In this document: positions 1 through 12,408 of the stretch, piece after piece
Layout: each line of letters opens with the position of its first letter
Position numbering within the stretch: position 1 is the stretch's first letter
Origin: a halophilic archaeon J07HX64
GTDB taxonomy: Archaea > Halobacteriota > Halobacteria > Halobacteriales > Haloarculaceae
DNA length: 12,408 nucleotides
Assembly (NCBI GenBank): GCA_000416085.1
Contig: KE356579.1
Location: 290,688-303,095, forward strand
Reading direction: 5' to 3'
Translations under genes and position numbers: made by a program
The notes under the pieces: generated by a model
The model's database searches: none
What the model was told of the DNA's origin: nothing
What the model saw: the letters and a program-made list of their open reading frames with translations, nothing else

Positions 1-439
1 GGTCGCCAAAGACCACGGCACCGTCGTGGACAGCGCGGGCGCGCTTGCCCGCCGCGATCGCCGACCGCCCGCTCGCGAGGTTGCTCTTCCCACCGAGCAC
101 GACCGATCGGGGTGCGCTGGCCCGGTTGTCCAGGCCACCGTAGACGGCGGCGAACTCGCTGACGGCCTCGTTTGCGAGACTGTCCCCCTGTGTGAGCACC
201 CCTTGTTTGCGCCACTCGACGACCGTCTCGCCCGCGCTGTTCTCGGTCTCGACGCCCAGGTAGACAACGCCGGTGTCCGTTGCGAGGAACTTCGCACCCG
301 GCGCGGGGTCGTACCCGTCGAGATTGTCGCTGGTATCCCGGAGTTCGACATCGTCGTCGAGCTGCTCGAAGTTCGCGTTGAGTGGTTCGTGCCAGTTCTG
401 TGCCCCTTTCTCTGGTGTGTTGTAGCTGTGATTGCTCAT
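1..439 (-). CDS. Tail-fibre/spike-like protein with YadA-head-like repeats, partial (3' end beyond window)
   Basis: Only the first 146 residues are inside the window; the reading frame is open to base 2. The N-terminus (about residues 7-27, with N-T-P-E-K-G then W-H-E-P-L-N-A-N-F) is a pattern I associate with the start of tail-fibre-like proteins. From about residue 95 to the edge there are short glycine-ended repeats (YGGLDNRAS, LGGKSNLAS, AAGKRARAV, FGD) of the kind that form the left-handed beta-roll head of YadA-type trimeric adhesins and some fibres. No signal peptide or membrane segment is present, which fits a component of a particle assembled in the cytoplasm rather than a classical secreted adhesin. 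It begins 6 bases after the upstream stop codon, and a GGAG lies at 452-455 inside the end of that gene, so the two are surely co-transcribed. Family assignment is inferred from motifs; a generic surface repeat protein is the alternative. Confidence 0.7.
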   Translation of the reverse strand, partial: MSNHSYNTPEKGAQNWHEPLNANFEQLDDDVELRDTSDNLDGYDPAPGAKFLATDTGVVYLGVETENSAGETVVEWRKQGVLTQGDSLANEAVSEFAAVYGGLDNRASAPRSVVLGGKSNLASGRSAIAAGKRARAVHDGAVVFGD

Positions 440-445
440 TGGTCG

Positions 446-1957
446 TTACTGCTCCTTTCGCAACATCTTGTCGTAGGCGACGGTGATTTGCTCGGTTGCA
501 ACCTCGCCGTCCGCGCTGTCCTCGAGTTCCGGCGGGTCGTAGTCCTTTATCCAGGCCTCCTTGAGCTCCCACCTGACCCTTGCTTCGCCGTTCTCGTCCA
601 GCAGGACAACGGCAATCTCCTTACGACCCTCCTCGACGTTCCCCTCTTCGACCGCCTCCGCCCAGTCGTAGAACGTGGTGTCGTCGGGCTTGACCCCCCG
701 TTCCATCTCCAGGTCGTCGAAAGTCGTCTGGCCCCACTCCGTCTCGCCGTCGCTGCCGTTCTTGTAGGAATCCTGCTCGGTAGACCGGCTGGGAATGGTC
801 ACCCCGCGCCAGCCTGGAACTGTCTTGCCGTCCAGTTCGACTTTGAACCGGCCGGTCCGCATCGGACCGTGCTGGATTGCAACGACTGTCGAGTCGTCCC
901 TGCTACCGTCCGTACACGGGCGTGCAAAGACCGGCCCGTCCCACTCGTCGCGCTCCCAGGGTGGGATGGCGGCGACACCGAGCGCGTGGCTGCCGGGTTC
1001 GACGGTGTCCGTCGTGGGACCGGTGTCCCACTCCAGGGTCACCTCCGTGCTATCGCCGGACGGGAGTTCCACCGCGTACGACTCGACTTTGAAGTGGCCG
1101 GTCTTGAGCGGACCGTGTGGGGCGGCGATGCCCGGACCGTCTCCGCCGCCCCCCGGCGAGCCTCCACCGCCGGGGCGTATAGTCCCGTAGTTGGAGATGG
1201 AGTTTCTGTAACTTTTCGCCGCCAGGACGATGCTCTCGCGGCCGGTCTGACCGCCGGTGTTCTCGACTGTCGCGGTCATCTTGATCCTCTCGCCGGCCTC
1301 GACCGGCGCGTTCGTGCTCGTGACCTCGACGGCGAGATGGGGTGGCTCGCTGACCGAGACGGTCGTCTCGTCTCTGCTGGTCCCGGTGTCGGCCCAGATT
1401 TTCCTCTCGTACTGGGGTCCGTTCCCTTCACGATACTCCCCCTGCTCGGTGGCGAGGTGGACGGTGCCGGACTCCCCGGGGTCCAGCGCCAGTTTCGTCT
1501 TCTTTTTTTTCTCGGCCTGATTGCCGATGCCGACCGCGACCGTCCCGACGCCCGCCGTCTCTCCGGTGTTCGTCGCCGTGCAGTCGGCACAGAGCGGTTC
1601 CCCCTCGGTGACTGGTCCGTTCGTCCAGTCGATGGTCACGTCCAGCGGTATCTCGGGGTCGGTCCCACCGCCGTCCTCGACAGTCACAGCAGTGCCGTCC
1701 TGGTCTGTCTCGCTCTCCACCACTGCAGTGTAGCTGTCGGCGTCGCCCGGCTCCGTCACCCAGTTGAGTATCTCCTCCGTGGACTGGCCGTTCCCCAGGT
1801 TCACGTCGGTTACGCCGCGTTGCTGTCCACCCATCGAGAGGGTCACCTGCTGGGTGGCCGCCTGTTCGCCCGTGTTCTCGACGAGCACCGTCACCGTCAG
1901 CGTCCCGCCGACGGTCACCGGCGAGTTCGTCCCCTGAATCGTGAGTATAAATGACAT
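446..1957 (-). CDS. CARDB-repeat protein fused to a phage/eCIS-type tail-tube domain
   Basis: 503 residues, ATG start, TAA stop. Residues about 3-94, 103-203 and 206-360 are three beta-sandwich repeats of CARDB type, each with a V-E-N-T-G or T-N-T-G-E turn (27-30, 130-133, 231-234) and a late G-[DE]-S strand. Domain 3 is interrupted by a Gly/Pro-rich linker (261-276). Residues about 363-500 are a full-length tail-tube domain of the T4 gp19-like family: H-G-P-M-R-T-G-R-F-K-V-E at 363-374, W-G-Q-T-T-F-D-D-L-E-M-E-R-G at 408-421, an E-I-A-V-V-L-L-D strand at 447-454, W-E-L-K-x-A-W at 463-469 and V-A-T-E at 486-489. In phages and contractile injection systems this family builds the inner tube, normally as a protein of about 150 residues. 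There is no signal peptide. A CxxC (123-126) lies in CARDB 2. The fusion is seen directly; use as a tube, cap or decoration subunit is inferred. Confidence 0.85.
   Translation of the reverse strand: MSFILTIQGTNSPVTVGGTLTVTVLVENTGEQAATQQVTLSMGGQQRGVTDVNLGNGQSTEEILNWVTEPGDADSYTAVVESETDQDGTAVTVEDGGGTDPEIPLDVTIDWTNGPVTEGEPLCADCTATNTGETAGVGTVAVGIGNQAEKKKKTKLALDPGESGTVHLATEQGEYREGNGPQYERKIWADTGTSRDETTVSVSEPPHLAVEVTSTNAPVEAGERIKMTATVENTGGQTGRESIVLAAKSYRNSISNYGTIRPGGGGSPGGGGDGPGIAAPHGPLKTGHFKVESYAVELPSGDSTEVTLEWDTGPTTDTVEPGSHALGVAAIPPWERDEWDGPVFARPCTDGSRDDSTVVAIQHGPMRTGRFKVELDGKTVPGWRGVTIPSRSTEQDSYKNGSDGETEWGQTTFDDLEMERGVKPDDTTFYDWAEAVEEGNVEEGRKEIAVVLLDENGEARVRWELKEAWIKDYDPPELEDSADGEVATEQITVAYDKMLRKEQ
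837..871. repeat. Direct repeat copy A inside the CARDB/tail-tube gene
   Basis: 35 bases with about 29 identical to 1083-1117. It encodes (minus strand) the first strand of the tail-tube domain, HGPMRTGRFKV. The second copy lies 246 bases upstream in the gene, in the same reading frame. Confidence 0.75.
1083..1117. repeat. Direct repeat copy B inside the CARDB/tail-tube gene
   Basis: Partner of 837-871. Encodes HGPLKTGHFKV (residues 281-291) inside CARDB domain 3, directly after a Gly-rich linker, so it looks like a duplicated tail-tube N-terminus inserted between two CARDB strands. Confidence 0.7.
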
Positions 1958-2084: not shown

Positions 2085-2558
2085 TTAGACCGCGTGGACA
2101 CGCCAGGTAAACAGCGTCTCGAGGATGTAGTTGACGAGCATCCCGCATGCGATTCCACCGGTTTTCGCGACGAGCAGCCAGACGTCGATGCCGGCGATCG
2201 TCACGCTCACGAACAGGAGCCGAAAGACGGTGACAAAGACGAGAAACTGGATAGTGGCACCGACCGCCCGGACAGCGTGGGAGCGCACGAGGCGGCGGGC
2301 CGTGGCCCACCGGCCGTTTCCCCCGGCATCGCGGAACGTCCAGCCCTCGTTGAGCGTGAACATCACGAGGATAGCAGTCTCGATGCCGACAACGACGGCA
2401 GCCTCCTCGAGCAGACCGACCGACTCGACGAGGACGAGTAACACCATCACGTCGAACAGTGCTCCGACGACGCCGACAGAGACGAATCGCCCGAACCGTC
2501 GCGGCGAGGCCAGCGCGGCCAGCCACCGACCGAGGCGGCTGTTCTCCCGGTCGCTCAT
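2085..2558 (-). CDS. GtrA-family membrane protein
   Basis: 157 residues with four predicted membrane helices (about 23-45, 52-69, 97-117, 127-147) and short loops. The N-E-G-W-T-F-R after helix 2 (70-76) and the closing N-Y-x-L-E-x-L-F-T-W (143-152) are hallmarks of the GtrA/DPMS-type family (PF04138). Members assist polyprenyl-linked sugar transfer or flipping, often next to a GT2 synthase, as here. I chose the ATG at 2558 over the upstream GTG at 2582 because it makes a 4-base ATGA overlap with the stop of the glycosyltransferase gene, implying translational coupling. Length is normal for the family. The transported lipid-linked sugar cannot be told from sequence. Confidence 0.85.
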   Translation of the reverse strand: MSDRENSRLGRWLAALASPRRFGRFVSVGVVGALFDVMVLLVLVESVGLLEEAAVVVGIETAILVMFTLNEGWTFRDAGGNGRWATARRLVRSHAVRAVGATIQFLVFVTVFRLLFVSVTIAGIDVWLLVAKTGGIACGMLVNYILETLFTWRVHAV

Positions 2559-3301
2559 TCTTCGAGAGGTGGACCGTGACACGACCGTTCAACCGAGGCG
2601 TCGACCCGGGTCGTCCGGAGACTGGTGCGCAGCAGCGCAGTCCCCATGTCGACGGCCGACCGCACCGGCGGCACCGTCGAGTCCGGGTGGTCGTGCCAGG
2701 TGATCGGGATCTCCTGTACTGTCAGGCTGTGCGCGCTGGCGAACGCGAGGAGTTCGACATCCCAGGCGAACCCCTCCTCGGTGAGGTCCTCGCGGACCTG
2801 TCGCCAGGCGCCCGCGGTGAGCGCCTTCGCGCCGCACTGGTAGTCGTACAGCGACACGTCGAGCAGTCGTCTGGCGAGCCAGGCGAACCCGTCGCCCATC
2901 ACCCCGCGCGGGATGGACTGCCCGGTTTCGACTGTGGCATCGGGGTGGCGCCGGGAGCCGACGGCCAGACTCGTGTTCCCGCTCAGGACCGCGTCGACGA
3001 TACGACCGAGCTCCGGAACGGGTGTCGCGGCGTCGGCGTCGGCGAACGCGAGCACGTCGGTGTTGAGCGCGTCGAACCCGTCGGTGATGGCGGCCCCCTT
3101 TCCACGACGCCGTGCGGAAACCGCCACTGTCGCCGGGGTCCCGGCGAGTCGCTGTCGGGTACGCTCCCCCGGCGCGTCGAGTTCGACCCGGAGCATCGCC
3201 GGGTCGAGTATCTCTGTTACCTGCTCCAGATAGGGAACGAGCAGTTCCAGGTCGGGCCGGTACGCGGGCACGATGAACCCGAGCGTGGGCGGGTCAGCCA
3301 C
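2555..3301 (-). CDS. GT2 glycosyltransferase, dolichyl-phosphate-sugar-synthase-like
   Basis: 248 residues from a GTG start. Family A glycosyltransferase fold: V-P-A-Y-R-P-D at 11-17, R-R-G-K-G near 65-69, the metal/nucleotide D-A-D-A-A-T at 88-93, G-S-R-R-H-P-D at 115-121, Y-Q-C-G-A-K at 154-159 and F-A-W-D-V-E-L at 178-184, the last two typical of dolichyl-phosphate glucose/mannose synthases. The usual I-V-V-D-D-G-S strand after the first motif is replaced by R-V-E-L-D-A-P-G. There is no membrane anchor of its own, so the GtrA partner encoded next presumably brings it to the membrane. The start at 3301 rather than GTG 3310 is chosen because a perfect Shine-Dalgarno lies 5 bases ahead. Expected to charge dolichyl phosphate with a sugar for surface glycans; donor sugar unknown. 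Confidence 0.83.
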   Translation of the reverse strand: MADPPTLGFIVPAYRPDLELLVPYLEQVTEILDPAMLRVELDAPGERTRQRLAGTPATVAVSARRRGKGAAITDGFDALNTDVLAFADADAATPVPELGRIVDAVLSGNTSLAVGSRRHPDATVETGQSIPRGVMGDGFAWLARRLLDVSLYDYQCGAKALTAGAWRQVREDLTEEGFAWDVELLAFASAHSLTVQEIPITWHDHPDSTVPPVRSAVDMGTALLRTSLRTTRVDASVERSCHGPPLEE

Positions 3302-3306
3302 CTGTC

Positions 3307-3314
3307 TCACCTCC
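3307..3314 (-). promoter_or_regulatory. Ribosome binding site deciding the GT2 start
   Basis: GGAGGTGA on the minus strand, a full match to the 16S anti-Shine-Dalgarno, 5 bases before GTG 3301. It overlaps the competing GTG at 3310, which argues against that start. Confidence 0.65.
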
Positions 3315-3608: not shown

Positions 3609-5192
3609 TCAGGAGGACCGCCAGAACAGGCCGGTGAAGATTGCGAGCACGGGGACGATCTCCAGTCGGCCGATCAACATCAGAAAGACCATCACCAGTT
3701 TCGTCTCCCCGGGGAAATGAAGATAGTCCCCGAACGGGCCGAGAGCACCGAACCCCGGGCCGATGTTGCCGAGGGTGGCGATAGAGGCGCTCATCGCCTC
3801 CAGCGTCGTGAGGGTGCCATTGTAGTTGAGCATGAAAAACACGGTGGCGATACCGTAGAGGACGAAATACAGGAGCGTGAACACCGCGATCTTCCGGACG
3901 ACGGTCTCGCTGATGACGTTGTCCCCGAACCGGACTGTGTGGACCGCGTTCGGTCGGGCGGTGGCGGCGAGTTCGCGGCGTGCCGCTTTCAGTATGACGA
4001 GCCACCGGATGACTTTTATACCGCCGCCGGTCGACCCGGCGGAGCCACCGATGAACATCGCAAAGATGATTACGATCTGACCGCCGGTGTCCCAGCCGGC
4101 AAAGTCACTGGTGGCGTAGCCGGTCGAGTTCATTATCGAACCGATCTGGAAGGCCGCCTGCCGGAACGCGTCGAACGCCTCGCCCTCCGCAACGGGACCG
4201 GGGTCGACACCCTCGGCGGCACCGCGGAACAGAACGACCGCGAGCACGGCGATCAGCACCGCGATGACGCCGACGTAGGCGCGGAACTCGGGGTCGTACG
4301 CGATGCTTTTTACATCACCGCTGAGCAGGTACCAGAACAGTGCGAAGTTCGTGCCGGCGACGACTAGAAACGGGACGAACGTCAGCTGAACGGCGGAGCT
4401 AAAGAAGCCGACACTGTCGGCCTGCGGTGAGAACCCCCCTGTCGGGAGCGTCGTGAGGGCGTGGGCAACGGCGTTGTACAGGTCCATCCGCGGCGCGAGC
4501 CCGTCCATCCCGAGGACAGGTCCCAGGTAGTGCATGGCGCTGAGTAGCAGTATCATCGCGACGGTGAACCCGAAATACACCAGCCAGAGTATCCGGGCGG
4601 TCTTGGCGATGCGCGGGGTGAGCTTCTCGAAACTCGGTCCCGGTGCCTCCGCGCTGATGAGCTGTGTGCCGTTGACCGCAATCTCGGGCAGGATGGCGAC
4701 CATCAGGACGATTATCCCCATTCCACCGAGCCACTGTGTGAGCTGTCGCCACATCAACAGCGCGCGGGAGTGCTGGTCCAGCGATATCTCGCCGAGCACT
4801 GTCGCCCCGGTCGTTGTGAACCCGCTCGTGGACTCAAACAGCGCGTTCACGATGGAGCTCGCGGCCGCCCCCGGGGACCCGGTGCTGAGTCCCACAGTCG
4901 ACTCGGTTCCTATCCCCGCGAGCAGGTACGGGATGGTGCCGATAACCGAGACAGAGACCCACGAGAGTGTGACCAGCAGGAGTGCCTCGGGCGGTCCCAT
5001 ATCGGGGTCTGCCTCCAGTTGCTCCAGGAGGAGACCGACGCCGACCACGAGCGCTATCGAGACCACGAACACCCAGATGTCCTCCCCGTAGACAACCGCG
5101 ACGACCAGCGGCACCAGCATCGCCAGCGCGACGTACCTCAGCACGGTTCCCAGAAGCGCCACCGAGACCCGCGGACTCACGTACAGGTTCAC
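3609..5192 (-). CDS. trkH: TrkH-family potassium transporter subunit (copy 1)
   Basis: 527 residues, about ten hydrophobic membrane segments, organised as four M1-pore-M2 units. The four selectivity-filter loops are visible: S-G-F-T-T-T-G-A-T (123-131), T-L-P-T-G-G-F-S-P (248-256), N-S-T-G-Y-A-T (355-361) and L-G-N-I-G-P-G-F-G (474-482). G-S-T-G-G-G-I-K-V-I-R-W (386-397) and the C-terminal G-R-L-E-I-V-P (508-514) are family signatures. It forms the membrane channel that lets K+ in under control of a TrkA-type NAD-binding protein, important for the high internal K+ of haloarchaea. GTG start; the first helices follow it directly and a GGTGGT lies 9 bases ahead. It is last in the trk group, 179 bases after the other trkH, so it may have its own promoter. 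Normal family length. Confidence 0.93.
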   Translation of the reverse strand: MNLYVSPRVSVALLGTVLRYVALAMLVPLVVAVVYGEDIWVFVVSIALVVGVGLLLEQLEADPDMGPPEALLLVTLSWVSVSVIGTIPYLLAGIGTESTVGLSTGSPGAAASSIVNALFESTSGFTTTGATVLGEISLDQHSRALLMWRQLTQWLGGMGIIVLMVAILPEIAVNGTQLISAEAPGPSFEKLTPRIAKTARILWLVYFGFTVAMILLLSAMHYLGPVLGMDGLAPRMDLYNAVAHALTTLPTGGFSPQADSVGFFSSAVQLTFVPFLVVAGTNFALFWYLLSGDVKSIAYDPEFRAYVGVIAVLIAVLAVVLFRGAAEGVDPGPVAEGEAFDAFRQAAFQIGSIMNSTGYATSDFAGWDTGGQIVIIFAMFIGGSAGSTGGGIKVIRWLVILKAARRELAATARPNAVHTVRFGDNVISETVVRKIAVFTLLYFVLYGIATVFFMLNYNGTLTTLEAMSASIATLGNIGPGFGALGPFGDYLHFPGETKLVMVFLMLIGRLEIVPVLAIFTGLFWRSS

Positions 5193-5290
5193 CGGTGACC
5201 ACCCGTCCCTGTCACCCGCGGGCTCACGTCCGTCTGTTGCTGTCGTCGGTAACTATCCACTGGTGCGGTTATCGACGACATCACACTCAT
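5189..5290 (-). other. 33-codon open frame overlapping the trkH (copy 1) start
   Basis: An ATG at 5290 opens a frame of 33 codons ending in TGA, and its stop overlaps the trkH GTG as GTGA (5192-5189). The peptide (MSVMSSITAP...) is polar and unlike anything I recognise. It could be a regulatory upstream ORF or chance. Confidence 0.15.
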
Positions 5291-5345
5291 ATGGCTGAAT
5301 TTACCGGAGCACAATCAAAAAGTTGCTGACCTCCCCCCGAAATCA

Positions 5346-5363
5346 CCGAGGGCCGAACCTCGG
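5346..5363 (-). terminator. Possible terminator after trkH (copy 2)
   Basis: CCGAGG and CCTCGG form a 6-bp GC stem with a 6-base loop, beginning 8 bases after the stop of trkH copy 2. A CTTTTTG run follows about 23 bases later on the minus strand (near 5318-5324). This separates the trkA-trkH unit from the downstream trkH; readthrough is possible. Confidence 0.35.
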
Positions 5364-5371
5364 GCGTGGGT

Positions 5372-6895
5372 TCAGGAGCGCCAGAACGACGGTGTCAAAA
5401 GCACCAGCACCGGGACGATCTCGATACGGCCGAGCCACATGAGCACGACCATGACCGCCCGTGTCGACTCCGGAAACACGAGGTAGTTGTCCATCGGGCC
5501 GGCGCGACCAAACGCCGGGCCGATGTTCAGCACAGTCGAGGCAGCGGCACCCATCGCCTCGAACTCGGAGGGGTCGACACCGCTGCGGGCCCCGTCGATG
5601 ACGACGAACAGTGTCAGCAGAAAGAAGATGACGATGCTCAACAGGACGTACCCGTAGATATCACGGATCGTTCCCTCGTCGACGGAACTTCCCGATACCC
5701 GGACCGGGCGAACTGCGTCGGGGTGGATGGCGGTGAACAGGTCCCGGCGGAACGACTTCAGCACGACCAGCCACCGCAGCGACTTTATCGAGCAGGTGGT
5801 CGACCCGACCATCCCCCCGATGAACATCGCCGCAAAGAGGACGTTCTGGCCGGCGTTCGGCCAGTTCGTGAAATCCTGGCTGGCGTAGCCCGTCGTGGTG
5901 AGAATCGAGGCGACATTGAACGCGGAGTGCCGGACTGTGTCGTGAAGTCCCATGTCGAGTTCCTGTGTGCCGATCAACAGTGCCGCGCTCGTGGCGGTAA
6001 ACAGGGCGAACACACCGATGTAGAACCGGAACTCCTCGCTCCGGAGCAGCCGCATCGGGGCCCCCCGTATCGCGAAGTAGATCAGCACGAAACTGGTCGA
6101 CCCGAGCAACATCACGGGGATGAGCACCCACTGCACGGCGGCACTGAACGCCTCGATACTCCGGGCCTCCGGGGAGAACCCCGCCGTCGAGATGGAGGTG
6201 AGCGCGTGTGCAACGGCGTTGTACAGGTTCATATTCGGCGCGAGCTCCACACCCACGACCGGTCCGAGGTAGTGCATCCCAGCCAGCACCGCCGCCACGA
6301 GCACCGTCAGCCCGAGGTACAGCCCCCAGATGAGCTGTGCGGTCTCCGAGATGCGCGGGGTGAGCCGGTTGCTGCTCTGTGACTGTGTCTCGGTCTCCAT
6401 CAACTGGGCGCCGCCGACACCGATCTCCGAGAGCACCGCGGTCACCAGGATGAGGATACCGAGTCCGCCGAGCCACTGGAGCACCTGCCGCCACATCATC
6501 ACCGACCGGCTGTGGACACCGAAGTCCCCGATGACGGTCGCCCCGGTCGTGGTGAGTCCGCTCATCGCCTCGAACATCGCGTTGACCGGCTGTGCTATCG
6601 TCCCGTTGCCCGCGACGAGAAAGGGGAGCGCCCCGATTGCGGCGACGAGCAGCCAGATTGTGGCGACGGCGAGAAACGCCTCGCGCGGTCCCACGTCCTC
6701 CTCGATGTCGGCCAGCATCCGAAGCCCACCACCCAGACCCAGGGTGACAGCCATCGGCACCAGAAACGGGAGCACCGACTCCCCGTAGAGCACGGCGAGC
6801 GCGAGCGGAAAGAGCAGGGGGAGTGTGAGATACAACAGTACGGCACCGATAAGACCGATGCTCGCCCGCCACTCGACACGGACATACTGTCCCAT
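5372..6895 (-). CDS. trkH: TrkH-family potassium transporter subunit (copy 2, paired with trkA)
   Basis: 507 residues, ATG start, same ten-helix layout as the neighbouring copy but clearly diverged. Filter loops: S-G-L-T-T-T-G-A-T (112-120), S-I-S-T-A-G-F-S-P (234-242), T-T-T-G-Y-A-S (333-339) and L-N-I-G-P-A-F-G (456-463). Compared with copy 1, loop 2 has Ala in place of the first Gly (TAGF against TGGF), loop 4 has Ala after the Pro, and the Gly-rich G-S-T-G-G-G-I-K is G-S-T-T-C-S-I-K (364-371). C-terminal G-R-I-E-I-V-P (489-495) is kept. Its start is 5 bases after the trkA stop, so TrkA is most likely its direct gating partner. Function as the K+ channel subunit is secure; ion preference of each copy is not known. 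Confidence 0.93.
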   Translation of the reverse strand: MGQYVRVEWRASIGLIGAVLLYLTLPLLFPLALAVLYGESVLPFLVPMAVTLGLGGGLRMLADIEEDVGPREAFLAVATIWLLVAAIGALPFLVAGNGTIAQPVNAMFEAMSGLTTTGATVIGDFGVHSRSVMMWRQVLQWLGGLGILILVTAVLSEIGVGGAQLMETETQSQSSNRLTPRISETAQLIWGLYLGLTVLVAAVLAGMHYLGPVVGVELAPNMNLYNAVAHALTSISTAGFSPEARSIEAFSAAVQWVLIPVMLLGSTSFVLIYFAIRGAPMRLLRSEEFRFYIGVFALFTATSAALLIGTQELDMGLHDTVRHSAFNVASILTTTGYASQDFTNWPNAGQNVLFAAMFIGGMVGSTTCSIKSLRWLVVLKSFRRDLFTAIHPDAVRPVRVSGSSVDEGTIRDIYGYVLLSIVIFFLLTLFVVIDGARSGVDPSEFEAMGAAASTVLNIGPAFGRAGPMDNYLVFPESTRAVMVVLMWLGRIEIVPVLVLLTPSFWRS

Positions 6896-6900
6896 TCTGC

Positions 6901-8238
6901 TCAGCCCATTGCGAGCATCTGGCCGACGAACTCACTCTCGACGAAGATGACGACGTTGTCACCCTGCTCGAGCACTGTATCCCCTCGCGGGACCACCTCG
7001 GTCCCTCTCCGACTCACCGCACCGAACACGACGTCAGAGTTGACACTCTCGTCGATCTCGCGGATGTTCCGCCCCACGAACTCGCTGTCCGCGCCGAGTT
7101 CGAGTTCGAGCACCTCGGCTTTGCCGCCCTCGAGCACAGCGATGTTTTCGGCCACCTTCTCGTGGGTGAACCGGATTATCTCCTCGGCGGTCACGTCCCG
7201 CGGGCTAACCGCCGCGTCGATACCGATCTCCTGGAACAGCTGGACGTAGTCCGACCGGTCGACCAGCGAGATGACCCGTTTCGCCCCGATACGCTTTGCG
7301 AGCACCGAGACGAGCATGTTGTTCTCGTCGGAGCCGAGCGCCGAGACGAGCACGTTCGCCTCGTCGAGTCGCTCGCGGCGGAGAAAGTCCGTGTCTGTCG
7401 GGTCGTGGTTCATCACGAGCGTCTCGGGCAGGTCCTCGGCGAGCGCCCGGGAGCGGTCGCTGTCCTGCTCGACCAGTTTCGGTGAGAAGTCACGCATCTC
7501 GAGCATCCGTGCGGTGTGATACCCTATTTCGCCCCCGCCAACTATGACGATATCGTCGGCCGTGTCGGGTGTCGCCACCGGGGCGACCTGCTGTGCGAAC
7601 CCCTGGACACTCCCTGGACTGCCGATTATTACCATCCGGTCGCCCGCCTTTATAATCGTACTTCCCTGGGGCAGCACGAGGTCGTCGTCCCGGAACAGTG
7701 CCGCAAAGGTCAGCGAGTCGAACCGGTCGGCCTCCGCGACTGTCTGCCCGGTGATGGGGCTGCCCTCTGTGATATCGAACTCCGCCATCTTCACGAGTCC
7801 ACCGACGAAACTGCTGACCTCGACGGCCGACGGCAGCCCGATGACGTCGACGATTGTCCCGGCCGCCTGGAGGTTCGCACAGATCACGAAATCGGCATCG
7901 AACGCCTTCCCGGTCTGCTCCCAGGTCCGCCGGTACTCTGCGCTCTTTACTCGCGCTATATTGAACGGGTCACCGAGAGTCTCTGCCGTCCCGCAGATCA
8001 CCAGGTTCGTTTTGTCGTCGTCGGTGCTTGCGATGACCATATCGGCCTGGACAGCGCCTGCCTCTATTAGCACCGACGATTTCGTCCCATCACCGGCGAG
8101 TGTGAGCACGTCGATGTCGTACTTTATATCCTCGATACGAGACTCGTCGATGTCGACGATGACAACATCGTGGTCGGACGCGAGGTCAGCCGCGATGGAC
8201 GTGCCGACCTCTCCGGCACCGATTATCACGACCTGCAC
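6901..8238 (-). CDS. trkA: Trk potassium uptake protein TrkA, two RCK modules
   Basis: 445 residues, cytosolic. Two tandem modules: RCK-N 1 with the Rossmann G-A-G-E-V-G at 7-12 and an acidic D-I-D at 29-31 ending strand 2 (NAD(H) ribose binding), TrkA-C 1 at about 150-220, RCK-N 2 with G-G-G-E-I-G at 234-239, TrkA-C 2 at about 367-445. TrkA rings sit under TrkH and gate it in response to nucleotides. GTG 8238 is chosen because it puts the first Rossmann strand at the N-terminus and has GGTGGT 5-10 bases ahead; an ATG at 8259 would add seven residues (MHDRVVI) and cannot be excluded. It leads the trkA-trkH pair. Length matches bacterial and archaeal two-module TrkA (about 445-460 residues). 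Confidence 0.93.
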   Translation of the reverse strand: MQVVIIGAGEVGTSIAADLASDHDVVIVDIDESRIEDIKYDIDVLTLAGDGTKSSVLIEAGAVQADMVIASTDDDKTNLVICGTAETLGDPFNIARVKSAEYRRTWEQTGKAFDADFVICANLQAAGTIVDVIGLPSAVEVSSFVGGLVKMAEFDITEGSPITGQTVAEADRFDSLTFAALFRDDDLVLPQGSTIIKAGDRMVIIGSPGSVQGFAQQVAPVATPDTADDIVIVGGGEIGYHTARMLEMRDFSPKLVEQDSDRSRALAEDLPETLVMNHDPTDTDFLRRERLDEANVLVSALGSDENNMLVSVLAKRIGAKRVISLVDRSDYVQLFQEIGIDAAVSPRDVTAEEIIRFTHEKVAENIAVLEGGKAEVLELELGADSEFVGRNIREIDESVNSDVVFGAVSRRGTEVVPRGDTVLEQGDNVVIFVESEFVGQMLAMG

Positions 8239-8273
8239 TATGACCACCCTGTCATGCAACTACGAACTCGTGC

Positions 8274-10899: not shown

Positions 10900-12232
10900 T
10901 CAACTGTCTCTAGATTCACCGCTCGCACCGAGCGGCCGGGACGGTGTCGATCGGCTGAGAAAGAGCAGTCCGTCGAACCCGGTGAGCGGTGTCTGGAGAT
11001 ACTGCTGCCCGGGCGCGTCGGGGTCGTACACGGTACCGACCCACCGGATACGCTGTGGCGTGTTGAGCCAGTCCCGCAGACGCGGGTCCGCCGCGGCTGC
11101 CCGGACGTCGAGCAACCAAGGAGTGTTACCGACCGCGTCGAACTGGGCAGTCGCAGTTCCGTCTGCCGGCTCCCCAAGCGCGAACTGCCGCGGTCCGTTG
11201 TTGTCCGTCTCGCCTGCCTCGGCCGCCCGGAATCTGCCACGTCCGACGTCGAACCCGACCGACGTGTAACAGTCGCCGAACTCGCGGGCGAGTTGCTCGC
11301 CCATCGTCGCCGCGTCGGTCCAGACCTGTCCGTCGTCGAACGTGCCGCGTTTCACGTGGCTGTTGTGTGCCCAGACGGCGACCCGACCGTTCGGGTCCTG
11401 CTCGACACACCACCCGACGTTCGCTGCCATGTACTGGTCGCGCCGTGCCATCCCCTCGGGGTTCGGCCCCGTCGTCTTGTGCCGTACCCGTGACCAGTCA
11501 CAGGTCTGCTTGACGACACGACACAGGTGCCTCGCACGTGTCCACGCCCGCCTGCCGGCCGCGTCGACGTACGCCTCCTCGCTGTCGAGCAGTCGCTCCT
11601 CGATTGCACGGGCGGCCGCCGTTGCCTCGTCGAGCGCCCGCTCCACGACAGGCCCGGATGAGGTTCCGAAGGTAGCGAGTCGCGCGAGTGGGCCGCTGTC
11701 TACGAACGACGGGTCGACGCGCTCGAAGTACGACCGGAGCGGCTCTGCCGGTGTGGCCGGCCGGCTCAGGTCGACTCCCTCGCACACTGACCCGGTCTGT
11801 CGGCGGACGACCCCGGTTGAACGAGCGGAGCCACGACAGCAGGTCCCGTACCGACTCGACCCGCCACATCCACTTCTCGAGTCCTGCGAGCGCGGTCTCG
11901 GGGTCGCCCTCCCCCTGCCTGACGTACGCGTCCAGCGCGCACGCCGCCGAGGTGTCAGTCTCGAACGCGACTGTCCTGACCCCGAACTCCCGGACGAGCA
12001 GTGCCACCAGCCCCGTTTTCAGCCGGAAACACTCCCGGGTCCCGTGTGTCACCTCGCCGAGTCCGACGACCCGGTTCCCCCCCGCCGTCCCGTCCCGGTC
12101 GAGCAGTCCGGATACCGTCTCCACGAGCGTGTCCTCGCTGGCCCGACTGTCCGTTGCTCTGTGTACCGGCGACTCGTCGAGGCTGTCTGCGGGAACTGTG
12201 TACTCCCGTATCGCGTCACTACTGCCTGCCAT
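10900..12232 (-). pseudogene. Erythromycin-esterase-family protein, interrupted by a one-base frameshift
   Basis: The two halves lie in different frames. The first (from ATG 12232) carries residues 1-152 with G-E-V-T-H-G (59-64) and A-F-E (89-91). The second carries on from G-V-D-L-S with R-R-D-Q-Y-M-A (263-269 of the rejoined protein), A-H-N-S-H-V (288-293), M-G-E-Q-L (310-314) and S-V-G-F-D (324-328). Removing one G from the GGG at 11777-11779 joins them as R-G-V-D, the sequence expected in the family, giving 443 residues, a normal length. The His in the GExxHG motif and the later His pair match the residues essential in Ere enzymes. As written, translation gives 152 correct residues then a wrong tail ending at 11498. 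In archaea such proteins are putative hydrolases; macrolide esterase activity should not be assumed. Recent pseudogene and sequencing error are both possible. Confidence 0.85.
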
Positions 12233-12265
12233 ACTGCCTCTCGTGCTCCGGGTACGTCCGTTCCG

Positions 12266-12274
12266 GCTATACCG
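12266..12274 (-). promoter_or_regulatory. Possible TATA element of the erythromycin-esterase-like gene
   Basis: GGTATAGCC on the minus strand, about 38 bases before ATG 12232, with AGAGG as a possible ribosome site 6 bases ahead of the ATG. A short leader would be expected. Bases 12275-12408 hold nothing else I can support. Confidence 0.3.
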
Positions 12275-12408
12275 TTTCTGGACTCGAACAGGTGCTCCTT
12301 CGGACGACGGTCTCGGCCACGTCTGGACGATTTTCAACTCAGTATCACGCCAGCGTCTCGAGATGTCCTCGGACTTCTGCGAGAGCGCGACACTCCCCCG
12401 TGATGACG

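Follow-up and report, generated by a model that had tools for sequence, protein, structure and literature searches.

In this study, we found that a halophilic archaeon, J07HX64, encodes a protein, P0001, in which an N-terminal array of CARDB domains is joined to a tail-tube domain of the T4 gp19 type, and that this combination is real and rare. The gene starts with ATG, encodes 503 amino acids and occupies 446..1957 on the minus strand of the window, that is, of the whole 12,408-nucleotide stretch analysed here. PF06841 matched residues 369-498 (464..853, minus strand) over profile positions 3-133 of 134, with an E-value of 1.1e-26 and 93.7 bits (cut-off 28.2). The preliminary description of this DNA had placed a full-length T4-gp19-like domain at the C-terminus, a claim to be dropped if residues 363-500 gave no PF06841 match, and on this point it was right. 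The match stops 5 residues short of the C-terminus, and the extension is N-terminal. By sequence, the gp19 part also matched solved tubes of contractile injection systems (CIS), namely 7b5h (E 3.5e-8) and Afp1 (E 1.3e-7). The CARDB family (PF07705) was above its cut-off over two stretches (41.7 bits; cut-off 22.7), and the AlphaFold model contains three seven-stranded sandwiches at residues 3-94, 105-203 and 208-362 and a tube-like domain at 371-502, in agreement with the N-terminal CARDB array that had been proposed. On the minus strand, domain 1 (residues 1-94; Pfam and model) is encoded by 1676..1957, domain 2 (residues 105-203; model) by 1349..1645 and domain 3 (residues 208-362; model), which has two long loops, by 872..1336.

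The AlphaFold monomer was built on 31 sequences and has a mean pLDDT of 76.4 and a pTM of 0.45, so that the relative placement of the domains is not predicted. The pLDDT falls below 50 at residues 249-289 in domain 3 and 392-411 in gp19. The latter segment (725..784, minus strand) is the region of the beta2-beta3 loop of the gp19 domain itself, in which pattern and model indicate a shortened core. The gp19 domain is full length, but this loop is short (12 residues) and poorly predicted. A Foldseek comparison with the PDB and viral models returned generic multi-Ig matches of low TM-score. In a crude hydropathy test, P0001 has no membrane-like segment (maximum 19-mer 0.79). Its first 45 residues contain a 15-mer of hydropathy 1.51, mostly beta strand in the model, which leaves export not strictly excluded.

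The same architecture occurs elsewhere, as the preliminary description had expected. Searches of about 5.8 billion proteins in two rounds, with 8000 candidates scored in each, gave 23 proteins with CARDB and gp19 in one chain, P0001 included (P0001-P0022 and P0025; up to 684 aa); the second round added none, and the CARDB assignment of P0006 and P0025 rests on a separate Pfam scan. Most come from jgi, ena or ncbi contigs, and P0018 is from a Halovenus sp. metagenome-assembled genome (MAG). Recurrence of the fusion in 22 other database proteins shows that it did not arise from faulty local assembly. A search of genome contigs returned fusions solely from Halovenus sp. LUM.78, which is a MAG (8 loci in all; the genome of the window was possibly outside that search), and a search of viral contigs gave no fusion and a single weak CARDB-only match. 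Among the 17 other genomes of the genus, gp19 was found in G005, G009 and G010 and the fusion only in G009, which is LUM.78, so that 2 of the 18 genus members searched carry it. Fusions and Tat-type gp19 proteins intermingle in the gp19 tree; 18 of the 43 inner branches, the deep order included, are open, and the tree gave no answer as to which gp19 lineage is ancestral to the fusions.

The gene next to P0001 encodes a fibre. Its start lies 6 nt past the end of the P0001 gene, and its 5' 146 codons (2..439, minus strand) are 89% identical to a 328-aa fibre of LUM.78. A run of N at G000:C1:290638-290688 (L004 638-688) abuts the left edge of the window; because the window starts at this scaffold gap, the fibre gene is truncated and the sequence beyond is missing. 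The complete LUM.78 fibre has a Peptidase_S74 match followed by a coiled-coil-like end. The copy in the window ends before the S74 part, and 5/5 complete relatives are above the cut-off of Peptidase_S74 (PF13884). The window fibre has no hydrophobic start in the crude hydropathy test, which, together with the lack of a membrane-like segment in the fusion, is compatible with cytoplasmic assembly. Upstream of P0001 on the same strand are genes for a GtrA/DPMS membrane protein (2085..2582) and a family 2 glycosyltransferase (GT2; 2555..3310). LUM.78 contig L037 has GT2, GtrA and the fusion gene in the same order. LUM.78 contig L038 carries a gp19 end, the complete 328-aa fibre, a second, shorter fusion (390 aa) and then a convergent gene, which we take to be DUF502 and which by eye resembles a gene beyond the gap near the window in its genome. 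Judged by eye from gene starts, no tail gene other than the fibre and no capsid, portal or integrase gene was recognised around P0001. The idea of a tail-derived protein would have lost ground if no homologue lay near a tail-structural gene; a fibre adjoins the fusion both here and in LUM.78.

Other genes of this region were also observed. At 10903-11787 and 11501-12337 of the window (minus strand), an erythromycin-esterase-like gene (PF05139) is present as two overlapping pieces in different frames, and 3609-8259 (minus strand) holds two tandem TrkH genes plus a TrkA gene for potassium uptake. A very acidic tandem-repeat protein (L003 18723-20000 and L004 1-637, with ANVTVNGEFVGTT in the repeat) enters the gap beside the window.

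The pairing of a gp19 gene with a fibre gene is not confined to the fusions. At least eight such pairs exist in haloarchaea, with a spacing of 6-13 nt in all eight recognised: those of the window, LUM.78, G046, G049, G060, G062, G322 and Natronosalvus, where plasmid NZ_CP101160 of Natronosalvus amylolyticus carries the pair and the G130 contig has the same gene order. All of the complete first fibres that were scanned (6/6) have the S74 chaperone domain. In G049 (L035 10336-12460), gp19 is followed after 7 nt by an S74 protein (31.3 bits; cut-off 22) that lacks the shared fibre N-terminus, and the second S74 protein in the row scores 22.1 bits against the same cut-off of 22. The fibre alignment was matched, at one end or the other, in at least 135 of the 392 genomes sampled. 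Because the gp19-fibre gene pair recurs, the anchoring of fibres, one of several roles suggested for P0001 in the preliminary description, fits the data; capping, tipping or decorating a tube is more conjectural, with the only PF17482 sheath match 2.66 Mb away and a fibre as the only adjoining tail gene recognised.

Whether the pair goes with a contractile sheath is less clear. A sheath (PF17482) match was found in G000, the genome of the window, and in G046 and G060, and none in G049, G062, G130 and G322, that is, in 3/7 of the pair-bearing genomes recognised (at least seven) in the 392-genome sample. For these seven, Fisher's test gave p 0.040 by genome and 0.44 by genus, and an earlier count of six pair genomes gave 0.32 by genus, so that an obligate link to a contractile sheath was not upheld; the link is suggestive at most. 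Among the pair genomes without a PF17482 match, G130 and G322 are rated 99% complete, G062 78% and G049 59%. In view of G130 and G322, a dependence of the pair on a contractile machine is conjectural. In the same sample, 46/47 sheath genomes also have gp19, and 31 of the 77 gp19-bearing genomes have no PF17482 sheath.

Several gp19 loci of other types came to light in this survey. Tandem pairs of gp19 matches stand at isolated sites in genomes without PF17482 (L100, L101, L102, L103, L108 and L110; about 5.5-6.7 kb). Haloglomus halophilum has two adjacent gp19 genes (L042 9718-12227), the second with a C-terminal DUF6517, which is another type of fusion. Tat-like starts, judged by eye, precede gp19 at L040 9872-10450, L041 9878-10450 and L104 6153-6713 and in P0089, P0091, P0031 and P0033; two of the Tat-type gp19 proteins have a PKD domain, and it seems that these tube folds are exported singly. 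The third gene of the Natronosalvus plasmid locus (L083 10335-10709) encodes a Gly-Phe-rich protein of 124 aa with a Tat-like start, and the end of its product resembles those of P0031 and P0033 (DVINAW/DVINAG).

The host genome, which is 72% complete and has gaps, likely contains a CIS. Its only PF17482 match (E 7.9e-22) is at G000:C1:2950805-2951125, about 2.66 Mb from P0001 in scaffold coordinates (2.95 Mb vs 0.29 Mb). Directly downstream of this sheath is the start of a separate tube gene (MRTGRFKVTIDDIEVPGWRS), which runs into a gap; P0001 is the sole gp19 profile match in the genome. Since the sheath has a tube start of its own beside it, P0001 is not the main tube of the host CIS. A sheath and the start of a stand-alone tube gene, of the kind that the preliminary description had proposed to look for nearby, are thus present in the genome, but at a distant locus and not beside the fusion. 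PMC11566945 describes the CIS of Halogeometricum as acting like a T6SS and reports a CIS cluster for 41/350 Halobacteria genomes. The PF17482 match in 47/392 of our sampled genomes, 12%, equals that share.

A trace of a tube protein lies within the CARDB part of P0001. Residues 170-188 in CARDB domain 2 (1394..1450, minus strand), TEQGEYREGNGPQYERKIW, are a copy of the tube beta2-beta3 (inter-ring) loop, as judged from sequence comparison, with 15/19 amino acids and 43/57 nucleotides identical to the CIS tube of the same genus (L039). When the CARDB part (residues 1-355) was compared with the L039 tube without gaps, the top score was 95, whereas 60 shuffles averaged 31.5 and did not exceed 43; against the gp19 domain of P0001 itself it was 61 (shuffled maximum 47). 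With a loose pattern, the inter-ring loop was found outside gp19 in 15/23 fusions, 11 of which have YREGN itself; P0015, P0017, P0019 and P0022 have degenerate forms. The pattern was absent from all 82 compared proteins without gp19. The loop within the gp19 domain has 12 residues in P0001 vs 15 in the L039 tube and 4 in the paired gp19 genes L036, L079 and L081 (these lengths leave out L083, L031, L032, P0004 and P0008-P0013). Fusions P0014, P0015 and P0017-P0021 keep the 15-residue loop, so the idea of a loop transfer does not hold uniformly. According to PMC8718954, the rings of most tail tubes described so far touch most extensively through the beta2-beta3 loop; removal or mutation of this loop halts tube growth in several phages, though its removal in YSD1 gave hexameric rings. 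We infer that the copied loop docks on a tube ring.

The last CARDB domain has a hypervariable loop. This loop 1, between strands C and D (residues 246-297; 1067..1222, minus strand; from alignment and model), has 36-59 residues between the positions of the P0001 anchors L245 and L298 and a mean pairwise identity of 0.23, compared with 0.62 for the gp19 part and 0.47 each for the CARDB core and the F-G loop region. These values, with gaps scored as mismatches, cover 15 fusions; the alignment comprised 17, of which P0014 and P0019, with an additional domain at this place, were left out, and the remaining six of the 23 fusions are not part of it. Loop 2, between strands F and G (residues 332-353; 899..964, minus strand; from alignment and model), is conserved in most fusions: PPWERD(E/D)WDGPVF is kept in 11/15, with P0007, P0018, P0022 and P0025 deviating. 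With this and the mean identity of 0.47, we rejected the possibility that the F-G loop is as variable as loop 1. Loop 1 consists of recurring modules in varied combinations, such as AAKxYxNSISNxG, FIDTTTK, WKEERF, HGPLKTG and an HU arm (RSARKGRNPQTGKEIKIPAK). HGPLKTG, the module of the tube N-terminus, is in loop 1 of P0001-P0003. In P0001 the tube-derived segment is the sole graft (residues 280-293; 1079..1120, minus strand), and 31/42 of its nucleotides are identical to the start of its own gp19.

Segments of other origin are found in exposed loops of some of the fusions, a hint that these loops may belong to the recognition part of a tail-like particle. The HU arm is a DNA-binding element and the GroES mobile loop a chaperonin-binding element. 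Pfam Bac_DNA_binding was matched in 4/17 fusions (best E 7.5e-13) and Cpn10 in 1/17 (E 4.2e-4); as excerpts, P0016 and P0020 were over the HU cut-off and P0022 over the Cpn10 cut-off. Against structures, P0025 matched an IHF construct best (E 2.4e-14) and 1hue with E 1.4e-9, and P0022 matched GroES (E 2.1e-4) at residues 245-281, in its F-G loop. In a low-confidence model of P0025, the HU segment forms part of the loop that links strand 154-164 to strand 207-215 in the last CARDB domain, with no HU fold. The five fusions with HU or GroES segments are each represented by more than one member, contig or source, which argues against a single assembly error. From these observations one may imagine that the last CARDB domain is an archaeal recognition scaffold, borne by a ring of phage type with a fibre at its side, whose C-D loop, and in some fusions F-G loop, is diversified with exchangeable peptide modules, some of them captured from unrelated genes (HU arm, GroES loop, tube). 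Such a scaffold would recall the variable loops of Ig domains, but we regard the proposal as an unlikely one at present.

Plasmid, PDB, Pfam and DNA-pattern searches revealed no source for the modules SISNxG, FIDTTTK, WKEERF and IAHPDM. A 36-residue query with SISNxG and WKEERF had no match among plasmids and a 55-residue one had none in the PDB; SipA_VBS, at 16.3 bits below its cut-off of 20.3, was treated as a chance hit for this query. An excerpt with IAHPDM matched no Pfam family. Ribosomal L7/L12 was dropped as the source of the module TADVKELADQLVN (P0008-P0013), having no support from Pfam or the PDB. The FIDTTTK DNA pattern was found in 1/59 relatives, LUM.78, at a position fitting its own L037 fusion gene; in 53 viral stretches nothing was convincing among the 5 with G+C >0.55 or with A/R following. 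P0048 (617 aa, NCBI source), a secreted-looking protein, has gp19 pieces scattered in altered order plus the FIDTTTK module.

Our preferred, though tentative, reading is that P0001 is an accessory adaptor ring which arose from the tube protein of a contractile system, displays Ig-like arms and carries a fibre. The gp19 domain would form a ring that does not stack indefinitely, since its own inter-ring loop is altered, and the CARDB arm would use the copied loop to dock onto an adjacent tube ring. The P0001 ring might cap or end the tube or act as the base of the fibre, and the recognition surface would be made up of the S74-type fibre together with the variable loop of the CARDB part. This adaptor-ring reading is favoured by the full-length gp19 domain and the 6-13 nt fibre spacing in all eight recognised pairs, by the GT2-GtrA-fusion order kept in LUM.78 and by a host genome in which a sheath gene and the start of a separate tube gene are present. 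The loop copy outside gp19 in 15/23 fusions, the gp19 loop cut to 12 residues and the identity of 0.23 in loop 1 vs 0.62 in gp19 also argue for it. It is weakened in that the fibre is the only recognised tail gene beside P0001, that G130 and G322, 99% complete, lack PF17482 and the sheath association is not significant by genus, and that the fusions are mixed with Tat-type gp19 in the tree.

An alternative is a domesticated structure that is independent of any CIS, in which gp19 works outside an injection tube and the gp19-fibre pair forms a separate assembly for adhesion or at the surface. The 31/77 gp19 genomes without a PF17482 sheath, the pairs of G130, G322, G062 (78% complete) and G049 (59%), all genomes that gave no sheath match, the Tat-type sequences seen by eye before gp19 (L040, L041, L104, P0089, P0091, P0031, P0033) and the Natronosalvus locus, whose third gene looks Tat-exported and which lies among beta-propeller genes, all point in this direction. 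However, neither P0001 nor its fibre has a clear export signal in the crude hydropathy test, the host genome carries a sheath and a separate tube start, and the copied inter-ring loop points to a tube as partner; we therefore consider such a structure possible but doubtful. P0001 might also be a cargo of the tube, an archaeal counterpart of specialised Hcp whose CARDB arms are delivered by firing and whose grafted peptides then bind in the target cell. Effector delivery by extended tube proteins has been described for Hcp (PMC8262886), and some fusions have HU-arm or GroES-loop segments. This is improbable, given that P0001 is extended at its N-terminus and by a large region (fusions reach 684 aa) and that no toxin domain was found in the fusions among the best 25 of 43 Pfam families. 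In addition, rings no longer stack in Pseudomonas when large chimeras are bound to Hcp (PMC8262886), and PMC11566945 describes Halogeometricum tubes without extra lumen density and secreted candidates with DUF4157.

Least likely of all is that the fusion and the fibre are a tube-and-fibre remnant of a halovirus or provirus tail with no present use. The fibre alignment in at least 135/392 genomes and the fusion in just 2 of 18 genus members searched would suit such a remnant, but the frames are open, the gp19-fibre pairing recurs and the gene order is kept between two species. Moreover, no capsid, portal or integrase was recognised by eye from gene starts, and the viral contigs gave one weak CARDB-only match.

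To our knowledge, where tail tubes bear Ig-like domains, these are attached C-terminally and the phage has no sheath; a CARDB-tube fusion was not found in the open-licence PMC papers searched. Siphophage tail proteins such as lambda gpV, T5 pb6 and extended gp17.1 of SPP1 likewise have a tube fold and Ig-like domain(s) in one polypeptide (PMC8718954). However, these have one C-terminal Ig-like domain and make up the main tube of a sheathless tail, as stated there, whereas P0001 has several N-terminal CARDB domains, a contractile-type gp19 and grafted loops and is not the main tube; it is therefore not a siphophage Ig-bearing major tail protein. Specialised (evolved) Hcp shares with P0001 a tube subunit and a large extra region, but its extension is C-terminal, with toxic domains in the cases tested, and that of P0001 is N-terminal and of adhesion type (PMC8262886); P0001 has no C-terminal extension of >60 aa and does not belong to this group. 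The C-terminal extensions of specialised Hcp nonetheless soften the view, taken in the preliminary description, that large additions normally find no space in a contractile tube. Cis1 of Halogeometricum borinquense is also a contractile-system tube gene in the same host class. Cis1 stands alone directly downstream of the sheath (PMC11566945), whereas P0001 lies elsewhere, adjoins a fibre gene and no sheath gene, and is extended N-terminally by three CARDB domains. Complete relatives of the neighbouring fibre share the intramolecular chaperone with Peptidase_S74 (PF13884) fibres and spikes, but fibres of the window type are paired with a lone gp19 gene, unlike S74 fibres in a full tail locus. 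PMC10553843 speaks of CARDB adhesins.

In conclusion, a contractile-type tube domain that is preceded by an array of CARDB domains and tied to a fibre gene would show how archaeal tube subunits are turned into adaptors or displays. The copied inter-ring loop gives a precise and testable docking prediction. If it is true that the loops capture peptides from unrelated genes, this would amount to a new way of diversifying recognition surfaces. Haloarchaea commonly have tube-like genes but no PF17482 sheath, as in 31 of the 77 gp19 genomes sampled.
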